A stretch of DNA of 64,000 nt, taken from contig CAMDTB010000008.1 of assembly GCA_945907245.1 (NCBI GenBank), forward strand, positions 1 to 64,000. Direction: 5' to 3'. Positions within the stretch are counted from its first letter, which is position 1; every line of letters starts with the position of its first letter. Below the pieces are notes generated by a model that saw only the letters and a list, made by a program, of their open reading frames with translations, had not been told where the DNA came from and did no database searches. The position numbers were made by a program, and so were the translations under genes. Positions 39,028 to 42,137 of the stretch are shown here, piece after piece. This DNA comes from Rhizobium sp. Q54. GTDB taxonomy: Bacteria; Pseudomonadota; Alphaproteobacteria; SMXS01.

Positions 39028-39786
39028 ATGTCACTCAAGGGACGTGTCGCCATTGTCACGGGCGGCAACAGGGGAATCGGCAAGGGGATCGCGCTGGGTC
39101 TGGCGCAGGACGGCGCCGACCTCGCCATCAACTACCGCGGCAACGAGGACGAGGCGCGCAAGACGCTGGACGAGGTGCGCGCGCTGGGCGTGCGCGCCGA
39201 GATCTACCAGGCGGGCGTCGACGATTACGGCGCCGTGCGCGACATGGTGGCGAAGGTCGCCGCCGATTTCGGCCAGATCGACATCCTCGTCAACAACGCC
39301 GGCATCGCCAGCAAGGGCCGCTCGGTCGCCGATACCGACCCGGAGGAGTTCGAAAGGGTCGTGCGAACCCACGCCTTCGGCACCTTCTACGCCACCCACG
39401 AGGTGATCCCGCATCTGCGCAAGCGGCCGCGCGGCGACATCATCATGGTGTCCTCGGCCGCCACGCGCCGCTGGATGGCCAACGGCGCGCCCTACAATGT
39501 GGGCAAGGCCAGCATCGAGGCCCTCGCCTTCGGCGTCGCCAAGGAGGAACGCGCCAACAACATCCGCGTCAACGTGGTCGCGCCCGGCGTGGTCGAGACC
39601 GACATGGGCCGCCGCCTGCTGAAGGCCCGCGGTATCGCCGATCCGCGCGACGCCGACGCGACGGCGCCGTTCGGCCGCGTGTGCCAGCCCGAGGATTTGT
39701 CGAACGTGGTGCGGTGGCTTGTGTCGGAGCAGAACAGTTACGTCACCGGCGAGCGGATTTACGTGGATGGCTTGGCGGGGGTTTAA
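39028..39786 (+). CDS. SDR-family oxidoreductase
   Basis: A 252-residue classical short-chain dehydrogenase/reductase. Cofactor motif TGGNRGIGKG (about 11-20), NNAG (about 90), catalytic Ser in VSSAATRR and the YNVGK pair (Tyr and Lys), then a C-terminal GERIYVDGLAGV. The acidic/basic pattern after strand two (NYRGNEDEA) suggests NADP. FabG-like but outside any fatty-acid operon, so a catabolic alcohol/ketone substrate is likely. RBS is AGGGAGGATC. Confidence 0.88.
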   Translation: MSLKGRVAIVTGGNRGIGKGIALGLAQDGADLAINYRGNEDEARKTLDEVRALGVRAEIYQAGVDDYGAVRDMVAKVAADFGQIDILVNNAGIASKGRSVADTDPEEFERVVRTHAFGTFYATHEVIPHLRKRPRGDIIMVSSAATRRWMANGAPYNVGKASIEALAFGVAKEERANNIRVNVVAPGVVETDMGRRLLKARGIADPRDADATAPFGRVCQPEDLSNVVRWLVSEQNSYVTGERIYVDGLAGV

Positions 39787-39800
39787 ACCCGCTCAACCGT

Positions 39801-39889
39801 GATTTTGCGAGCGCAGCGAAGCAATCCAGCCCTTCCGCCACACAGCTGTCAACTGCGCGGCTGGATTGCTTCGCTGCGCTCGCAAAATC
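39801..39889. repeat. Palindromic intergenic repeat, family R, copy 2
   Basis: 89-base palindrome between convergent gene ends. Outer arms gattttgcgagcgcagcgaa and ttcgctgcgctcgcaaaatc are perfect reverse complements over 20 bases, followed by gcaatccag / ctggattgc. It is the most symmetric of the three copies. Same family as 20997-21089 and 46501-46592. It could terminate both flanking genes. Confidence 0.85.
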
Positions 39890-39912
39890 GGCATTGTTTC
39901 AGGACACAGGAT

Positions 39913-40503
39913 TCAGCGTTTCAGCGCCTCTTCCACGAAATCCAGCCGGTCCTGGCCCCAGAACATCTCGCCGTCGACGAAGAAGGTCGGTGCGCCGAAC
40001 GCGCCGCGGTCGGCGGCTTCCTGGACGTTGGCCTTCAGCTTGTCCTTGATGTCCTCGCGCGCGATGCCGGCCTGGTAGGCGGCCACGTCGAGGCCGGCCT
40101 CTTCGAGCAGCTGCGGCCAGACATCGTCGGCGCCGATGTTGAGGCTCTTGAGCCACATGCCCTCGAACATGGCTTTCGCATAGGCCTCGAACTCGCCCCG
40201 CTCCTGCGCCACCAGCGCGCCGCGCAGCGCCGGGACGATCTTCACCTCGGCCATGTGCGGGTTGGGGTTGAGCGTCACGCCGTAGCGGCGGGCGAATCGC
40301 TGCAAATCCATGCCGCCATACTTGCCCTTGTTGGGTACGGTCATCGGCGGCCGGTTGCCGGTAAGCTGGAACAGGCCGAGCGTCAGCATGGGCCGCCAGA
40401 CCACGGTGCAGCCGGTGCGCTCGACGATGCCGGGAATCCGCGTCCACGCCAGATAGGTGGGCGGGCTCATGAAGTCGAAGAAGAATTCGAGGGTCTTGCC
40501 CAT
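39913..40503 (-). CDS. 2-hydroxychromene-2-carboxylate isomerase/DsbA-family (GST-kappa-like) protein
   Basis: A 196-residue thioredoxin-fold protein of the HCCA isomerase group, glutathione-dependent isomerases of aromatic degradation. It opens LEFFFDFMSPPTYLAW, with the Ser of the SPxxY active site. It continues with RPMLTLGLFQLTGNRPP and ends GAFGAPTFFVDGEMFWGQDRLDFV, typical of the family. No CxxC is present, so it is not a disulfide enzyme. Last gene of a three-gene operon; the start overlaps the SDR stop by one base. Confidence 0.85.
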   Translation of the reverse strand: MGKTLEFFFDFMSPPTYLAWTRIPGIVERTGCTVVWRPMLTLGLFQLTGNRPPMTVPNKGKYGGMDLQRFARRYGVTLNPNPHMAEVKIVPALRGALVAQERGEFEAYAKAMFEGMWLKSLNIGADDVWPQLLEEAGLDVAAYQAGIAREDIKDKLKANVQEAADRGAFGAPTFFVDGEMFWGQDRLDFVEEALKR

Positions 40504-41225
40504 TACCAGGGTTCCTTCCAGGGACGCAGCTCGGTCTCGTGGGTCCAGGCGCTGCGGTGCTGCGAGTGGATGGCGAAATAGGTGTCGGCGATGGCCTCGG
40601 GCGCGAGCACGCCGTCGGCCGGCCGCTCCTCGAACACCTTCGGCATCATCTTGCGGATCAGCGGTGTGTCGATGGGGCCGTCGATGATGACATGCGCGAC
40701 GTGGATGTTCTTCGGGAACAGCTCGCGCGCCATGGACTGGGCCAGCGCCCGGAGCGCGTGCTTGGAGCCCGAGAACGCCGCCAGGTTGGCCTTGCCCCGC
40801 AGCGCCGACGTGGCGCCGGTGAACAGGATCGTGCCCTTCTCGCGCGGTTCCATCACCTTGGCCACCTCGCGGCCCATCAGGAACGCGCCGAAGGCGTTGA
40901 CCCGCCAGACCCGTTCGTAATCCGCCGCGGAATGCTGGGCGATGGGCGAATGGGTGCCGATCGCCGCGTTGTAGACCGCCACCTCGATGGGGCCGACCTC
41001 GCGCTCGATATGGGCGACCATGTCGACCATCTGGGCCTCGTCGGTCGAATCGACGCCGTAGGCATGGGCGGTGCCGCCCTCGGCGACGATCTCGCCGACC
41101 AGGTGGTTCAGCTTGTCCTCGTTGCGCCGGGCGACGCAGGCTGTATAGCCGGCGCGGGCGAAGCGTTTGGCGATGGCGCCGCCGGTGGCGACGCCCGCGC
41201 CGACGACGAGCACGACGGGCTTCAT
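40503..41225 (-). CDS. Divergent SDR-family protein lacking the catalytic Tyr
   Basis: A 240-residue Rossmann protein with nucleotide loop VVGAGVATGGAIAKRF in place of the usual GxxxGxG, and NAAIGTH in place of NNAG. In the position of Y-x3-K it reads FSGSK, so the proton-donating Tyr is Phe. The C-terminal AWTHETELRPWKEPW is a feature I associate with one widespread SDR clade. The start MKPVVLVV overlaps the upstream gene (ATGA). Whether it is a reductase at all is open. Confidence 0.83.
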   Translation of the reverse strand: MKPVVLVVGAGVATGGAIAKRFARAGYTACVARRNEDKLNHLVGEIVAEGGTAHAYGVDSTDEAQMVDMVAHIEREVGPIEVAVYNAAIGTHSPIAQHSAADYERVWRVNAFGAFLMGREVAKVMEPREKGTILFTGATSALRGKANLAAFSGSKHALRALAQSMARELFPKNIHVAHVIIDGPIDTPLIRKMMPKVFEERPADGVLAPEAIADTYFAIHSQHRSAWTHETELRPWKEPW

Positions 41226-41650
41226 GACGGGATCCGGTCGCCGTAGAGTTCCAGCAGGCCGCGCGGGTCGCAGTAGTCGACCCATTTGCGGATCTTGCCG
41301 CCCTTCAGGGTGAACACGCTGCACACCGGGAGCCTCAACACCTCGGCGCCGCTTTTGTCGCGGTAGCTGTCGACATGCTCGACGAACACCAGGTCGTCCA
41401 TGGCTTCCTGGGTGCCGAGCTTGGGGACGATCTTCACCACCGGCGCGTTGCCGCCGATATCGCTGAACAGGATCTCCTTGACCTGCGCCTTGGTCATGGT
41501 CGGGAAGCCGGTCAGGCTGTAGCTGCCTTCCTCGGACAGGTAGAGGTCATAGCCGTCCCAGACATGCTGGCGCGTGCCGCCCTCGAACGCCTTGTACAGC
41601 GCGATGATGATGCGAAGGTTGGTAAGGGCTTTCGGATCCCTTGGTGGCAT
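41222..41650 (-). CDS. NTF2/SnoaL-like (limonene-epoxide-hydrolase-like) protein
   Basis: A 142-residue cone-shaped NTF2-fold protein: an N-terminal helix LRIIIALYKAFEGGT, WDGYDLYLSEEGSYSLTGF, VFVEHVDSYRDKSGAEVLRLPVCSVFTLKGGKIRKWVDYCD. The last block with D-Y-x-D resembles limonene-1,2-epoxide hydrolases and SnoaL-like isomerases. It could act on an epoxide, enoyl or steroid-like substrate together with the next two genes. The start MPPRDPK is set by AGGAGAG; the track ORF has 46 extra residues. Confidence 0.78.
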   Translation of the reverse strand: MPPRDPKALTNLRIIIALYKAFEGGTRQHVWDGYDLYLSEEGSYSLTGFPTMTKAQVKEILFSDIGGNAPVVKIVPKLGTQEAMDDLVFVEHVDSYRDKSGAEVLRLPVCSVFTLKGGKIRKWVDYCDPRGLLELYGDRIPS

Positions 41651-41771
41651 GGGTCTCTCCTGCTGATTGCCGGCGGGACCACGGCTCTCCCCTTCCCGTC
41701 CGGCGAATGAGCGGGCATGATAGGAAGGGTCTGGACCGCAAGTCCAGCGGGGCCGACGGAGGAAACGACGA

Positions 41772-42137
41772 ATGTCACGACTGGCCATGTGCTGCGCGCT
41801 GGCCGTGCTGCTGCCCGCGACCGCCTGGGCCGGCAGCTACCGCGCCGGGCCGCTGGGCGCCTGGGACCAGAACGGCGAGTTTTCCTGCGAGGGCGGCGAC
41901 CTGCTGGTGTTCCCCGGCGGCGACTACGCCGTGGTTCCGCATGAGACCGACGAGATGACCTTTGCCCTGATCGACAGCCGCACCGGCCGCGCCAAGGTGG
42001 GCGGCTCCGCCGCCGCCGACCTGGAGAAGCTGAGGGCCGATCCCGCCCTCTGCGCCGGTCCCGTCGACTGCGAGGACTGGGACGCGGTCGGCAACGCCAT
42101 CAGGCAGTGCTGGCAGGACGACGGCCCGCTCAACTAG
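41772..42137 (+). CDS. Small exported cysteine-containing protein, unknown
   Basis: A 121-residue protein with a clean signal peptide (MSRLAMCCALAVLLPATAWA-GS, cleavage about residue 21). The mature part is acidic and has Cys at about 39, 94, 100 and 112 (EFSCEGG, ALCAGPVDCEDW, RQCW), enough for two disulfides in the periplasm. I recognise no family. Divergent from the NTF2/SDR/isomerase operon and convergent with gdx. Confidence 0.68.
   Translation: MSRLAMCCALAVLLPATAWAGSYRAGPLGAWDQNGEFSCEGGDLLVFPGGDYAVVPHETDEMTFALIDSRTGRAKVGGSAAADLEKLRADPALCAGPVDCEDWDAVGNAIRQCWQDDGPLN

Follow-up and report, generated by a model that had tools for sequence, protein, structure and literature searches.

Each of the three proteins considered here belongs to a fold family that is already known, and the second of them, an SDR with Phe at the position of the catalytic Tyr, has a solved relative. 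Among SDRs, CDD holds a subgroup, cd05373, in which Phe replaces Tyr and the Gly motif is incomplete. The closest solved relative of the SDR encoded in the 64,000-nucleotide stretch of Rhizobium sp. Q54 DNA analysed here (the window) is 3h7a from Rhodopseudomonas palustris, both by sequence (8.6e-53) and by fold; it shares the Phe at the Tyr position and a GATA..RG motif, but is only 39% identical to the window protein. The third protein resembles NahD and the kappa-class GSTs (2imd, 3fz5, 1r4w) in its DsbA fold, the Ser of an F-x-F-x-S-P motif, and the GN, KG and GxPT motifs. Enzymes of this kappa/HCCA type (NahD, kappa GST) add the glutathione thiolate to electrophilic substrates. In isopiperitenone reductase, another SDR whose Tyr is replaced, Glu takes that position and the enzyme carries out C=C reduction and no longer ketoreduction (PMC4988501). 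An SDR and a glutathione enzyme also occur together in isoprene degraders, where IsoI (a GST) forms an adduct that IsoH (an SDR) oxidises (PMC10057887). Finally, in limonene epoxide hydrolase (LEH), Asp132, Arg99 and Asp101 form the triad while Tyr53 and Asn55 hold the water (PMC3734700).

In the window, the three genes lie head to tail on the reverse strand: an LEH/NTF2-fold gene comes first (41222..41650, 142 aa), followed by the Phe-type SDR gene (40503..41225, 240 aa) and a kappa-GST/2-hydroxychromene-2-carboxylate isomerase-like gene of DsbA fold (39913..40503, 196 aa; hereafter HCCA-like). The first two overlap by four bases (ATGA, 41222..41225) and the last two by one (position 40503), as the first-pass annotation had stated in proposing a single operon; both overlaps are found again in a related genome, and the gene order is kept within the family. 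Between species of the genus the trio has a dN/dS of 0.02-0.23, and the three are therefore real, constrained genes; together with synteny, these low values rule out spurious open reading frames or a chance overlap. The trio is a real, conserved operon layout. A candidate sigma-70-like promoter (TGGACT-18-TATCAT, 41717..41746, reverse strand), weak and recognised by consensus match only, lies upstream of the operon. Further upstream, and divergent from it, is a gene for a small protein with a signal-peptide-like start (41772-42137, 121 aa), which matched no Pfam family; it is kept at its place in the genus and evolves faster (dN/dS 0.27-0.53).

The SDR assignment itself is clear (adh_short, PF00106, 137.9 bits against a cut-off of 26.6; model pLDDT 92, best fold match 3h7a), but its active site departs from the classical one. 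The tetrad positions read N110-A138-F151-K155, i.e., Ser and Tyr are both replaced while Asn and Lys are present; Phe lies in the motif AAF151SGSK155, two arginines (R33-R34) follow strand 2, and the Gly-rich loop is GAGVATGG, not TGxxxGxG. Both the Phe (FSGSK) and the odd nucleotide loop reported at first pass are thus in place, and the loss of the catalytic Ser, now Ala138, is an addition to that description. Conservation of the Phe, proposed there as a check, was assessed in the best-scoring 30 homologues of each search, with no random draw. Phe occupies the Tyr position in 55 of the 56 top homologues, which span the Pseudomonadota, and Ala the catalytic Ser position in all 56; Lys is retained in 55/56 and Asn lost in 50/56, so that the family of the window, which retains N110, is unlike most of the Phe clade in this respect. 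Most clade members have the cofactor loop GAG(V/D)ATGG, and Ala takes the place of the middle Gly in 25 of 27. In the tree, the window family forms its own branch inside the Phe clade, apart from the classical SDR encoded convergently to the trio. Judged by these alignments, Phe is clade-defining and no oddity of the Q54 genome, and its conservation throughout the clade shows that neither a misread base nor the decay of a single copy accounts for it.

The third protein meets the DSBA profile (PF01323, 152.3 bits) and has a GQDR motif besides Ser13 and a cis-Pro motif (GAPT), both of which are kept in all five aligned kappa-type sequences; the catalytic Ser of FxFxSP aligns with that of 2imd and 3fz5. 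It is nevertheless distant from NahD (E 1e-17), and naphthalene degradation by NahD proper was rejected as a role, given this low similarity and the fact that no such genes were recognised adjacent to the trio. Homologues of gshA and gshB are encoded in the genome, and glutathione can therefore be made in Q54.

The SDR and HCCA-like genes belong together well beyond this genome. Close homologues of the SDR are found in 156 of 385 alphaproteobacterial genomes (profile search, E <= 1e-45), and in a sample of the phylum 46 of 399 genomes have one at E <= 1e-60, including 16 that are not alphaproteobacterial. Outside the family, an HCCA-like gene follows directly downstream on the same strand at 43 of the 51 best-scoring SDR loci, with gaps of 2-187 bases, and lies within 1.5 kb at 46; since up to nine DSBA-domain genes occur in a 3.3-Mb genome, chance adjacency can be roughly estimated at well under 1%. 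This makes the SDR-HCCA pair the ancient core of the trio. It is carried, for instance, by Tistrella mobilis (where the second protein is named a DsbA family protein), by Cupriavidus metallidurans and, outside the Pseudomonadota, by Trichlorobacter lovleyi (2-hydroxychromene-2-carboxylate isomerase), while the SDR of Bradyrhizobium, Pseudosulfitobacter and Paraburkholderia has a GST gene next to it in place of the HCCA-like gene. In some alphaproteobacteria (L046, L052, L057, L044) a second Phe-type SDR follows the pair, making a different trio.

The clade is large, and the named records examined mostly read just "SDR family oxidoreductase"; its members have lost Ser and Tyr, yet they remain strictly conserved, and a glutathione enzyme almost always adjoins. 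The lost residues, Asn in most members among them, and the adjoining enzyme could be taken to mean that the SDR does no catalysis and only binds NADP(H), as a partner or sensor of the kappa-type enzyme, leaving the chemistry to the HCCA-like protein alone, perhaps with the LEH-like one. The SDR could indeed be catalytically dead and serve in binding or as a scaffold; however, Lys155, the glycines of the cofactor loop, R143, F151, D182, W227 and E230 are near-invariant, which suggests a working pocket, and close SDR homologues persist with no HCCA gene nearby at 5 of the 51 loci. We consider the partner or sensor role unlikely.

The pair's neighbours at several loci include HxlR regulators, enoyl-CoA hydratase, thioesterase, acyl-CoA dehydrogenases and CoA ligases; they differ between lineages and indicate no single pathway. 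An enoyl-CoA hydratase gene even lies between the SDR and HCCA-like genes at one locus (L074), and thioesterase, CoA ligase, acyl-CoA dehydrogenase and thiolase genes near clade members are what would be expected if the pair helped to degrade unusual unsaturated or branched acyl-CoAs, e.g., by cis-trans isomerisation and a 2,4-dienoyl-type reduction. Such a side role in acyl-CoA metabolism is rather improbable, as many loci have unrelated neighbours and no acyl-CoA genes were recognised beside the trio in the Q54 genome. The trio had been put forward as a catabolic or detoxification unit belonging to no well-known pathway. The second part is borne out by the literature search, which covered mainly freely accessible papers and returned no description of pair or trio (nor anything relevant on SDR_c10/cd05373, or on HxlR with glutathione and SDR), and NCBIfam has no specific name for the trio proteins; the first part fits the pair's neighbours elsewhere, and the role itself is still a prediction. 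The pair and the trio thus appear to be undescribed, and their reaction appears not to have been worked out by anyone.

In contrast with the wide distribution of the pair, the full NTF2-SDR-HCCA order is found in nine genomes of three genera, all in one alphaproteobacterial family: all seven of the genus (G000-G006), plus one of each of two other genera (G007 and G008). In a further genome (G009) only a distant relative of the LEH-like gene was detected, with no SDR and HCCA-like genes beside it. Relatives of the LEH-like protein (E <= 1e-12) turned up in no more than 9 of the 385 genomes of the class and, in a phylum sample of 299, in the window's own genome only, and the gene is missing beside every one of the 51 SDR loci from other families. 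The expectation that the trio would recur across genomes therefore holds within the family, whereas beyond it the SDR-HCCA pair is what recurs widely; the LEH-like gene is a family-specific addition to that pair. In G007 and G008 an extra small SnoaL-like gene precedes the operon (L032, 6800-7213; L034, 8060-8449); it is absent ahead of the operon in the window genus.

This first protein barely passes the LEH profile (PF07858, 24.9 bits, cut-off 24), but its model (pLDDT 88) finds LEH structures as best fold matches (1nww, 9gol), the nearest solved relative being the limonene epoxide hydrolase 9gol; the window protein is about 20% identical to limonene-1,2-epoxide hydrolase. Tyr53, Asp101 and Asp132 are kept as Y44, D94 and D125, while in the window genus two of the five catalytic residues are changed, Asn55 to L46 and Arg99 to H92. 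All five are intact in the G007 and G008 homologues. "Epoxide-hydrolase-like", as the gene had been called, therefore describes the fold and not the active site of the genus. Because the Asn and Arg positions are altered, the product, although constrained, is on sequence grounds unlikely to be an ordinary epoxide hydrolase. A relative with an intact active site occurs in another family (L139, 6942-10487), clustered with thioesterase, P450 and Rieske oxygenase genes.

The same substitutions weigh on a further possibility, an isoprene/styrene-type pathway in which glutathione opens an epoxide and the SDR oxidises the adduct before a CoA transferase acts. An epoxide-hydrolase fold beside a glutathione-type enzyme and an SDR would suit it, the IsoI/IsoH system is a precedent (PMC10057887), and GST and CoA-transferase genes adjoin one clade member. 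However, IsoH is reported to be a working NAD-dependent alcohol dehydrogenase, while the window SDR lacks both Ser and Tyr; Asn55 and Arg99 are missing from the LEH-like protein, and the immediate neighbours examined include no recognisable gene for a monooxygenase or a CoA transferase. We regard such a pathway as very improbable. Membership of the iso cluster as such was rejected, the motif of the functional dehydrogenase IsoH being near-classical (PMC10057887).

The reading we prefer, at a probability of roughly 40%, is that the products of the locus work as one module, with glutathione and NADP(H), on electrophiles, probably alpha,beta-unsaturated carbonyl or acyl compounds, and that the hydride transfer by the SDR is non-canonical, of the ene type; the substrate, the direction and every catalytic step are what we infer. 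The trio would act as one transcriptional unit built on the ancient module of Phe-type SDR and kappa-GST/HCCA-like protein. In the kappa-type protein, a glutathione thiolate activated by Ser13 would add reversibly to the unsaturated carbonyl or acyl electrophile, thereby isomerising or conjugating it. The SDR would bind NADP(H) and substrate and, because the Tyr/Ser proton relay is missing, would not carry out the usual carbonyl reduction; more likely it moves hydride to or from a conjugated C=C bond or acts on the glutathione adduct. The LEH-fold protein would have joined in front in this family; with the water-holding Asn and the bridging Arg both gone in the genus, it probably serves in proton transfer, isomerisation or binding rather than in epoxide hydrolysis. 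Overall, the module would carry out one step in detoxifying or catabolising reactive unsaturated compounds. An unsaturated carbonyl or acyl module is favoured by the C=C-reducing precedent of isopiperitenone reductase and by the pair's neighbours elsewhere. That reductase has Glu, a possible acid/base, where the clade has Phe; Phe is unable to donate a proton, and the Glu is therefore only a loose precedent. Broader, and on balance doubtful, is the proposal that the pair is an undescribed widespread glutathione-coupled system with SDR hydride transfer independent of a Ser-Tyr relay, the family's LEH-fold protein having become a non-hydrolase that serves the same pathway. Solving the reaction would give a function to many genes, in the Pseudomonadota and elsewhere, and might show that an enzyme superfamily ranking among the largest has a different mode of catalysis.

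The operon also bears signs of recent movement. Between two genomes of the genus (G000 and G005; L030), the stretch at about 39435-41685 is mostly 95-100% identical per 150-base step, as compared with 79-91% for most flanking steps, and dS is 0.10-0.13 for the trio against 0.39-0.50 for the flanking genes; in this one genome pair, silent-site divergence of the block (about 39.4-41.7 kb) is thus 3-4 times below that of its flanks. On these values, the trio seems to have been recently exchanged between lineages as a single unit, likely by a recombination or transfer tract matching the operon. A plasmid search with the LEH-like protein gave no match. For testing, concrete mutants and comparisons are provided by the changes in the LEH active site and by the trio's apparent exchange.

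A classical SDR with Ser, Tyr and Lys kept is encoded on the forward strand (39028..39786), convergent to the trio. Its position is conserved across the genus and in G007, at 77-98% identity, and it adjoins the trio in six of the eight other trio genomes; in G003 the contig is too short to tell, and in G008 it was not seen. Since it is kept in place, it may belong to the same pathway. The two convergent units are separated by a perfect 31-bp inverted repeat (39801..39889), whose 23-bp core occurs eight times in the genome with at most one mismatch, as opposed to none for a reversed control. The intergenic stretch between the convergent genes aligns in G005, and not in G001 or G004; the repeat is possibly a bidirectional terminator or a dispersed palindromic element.
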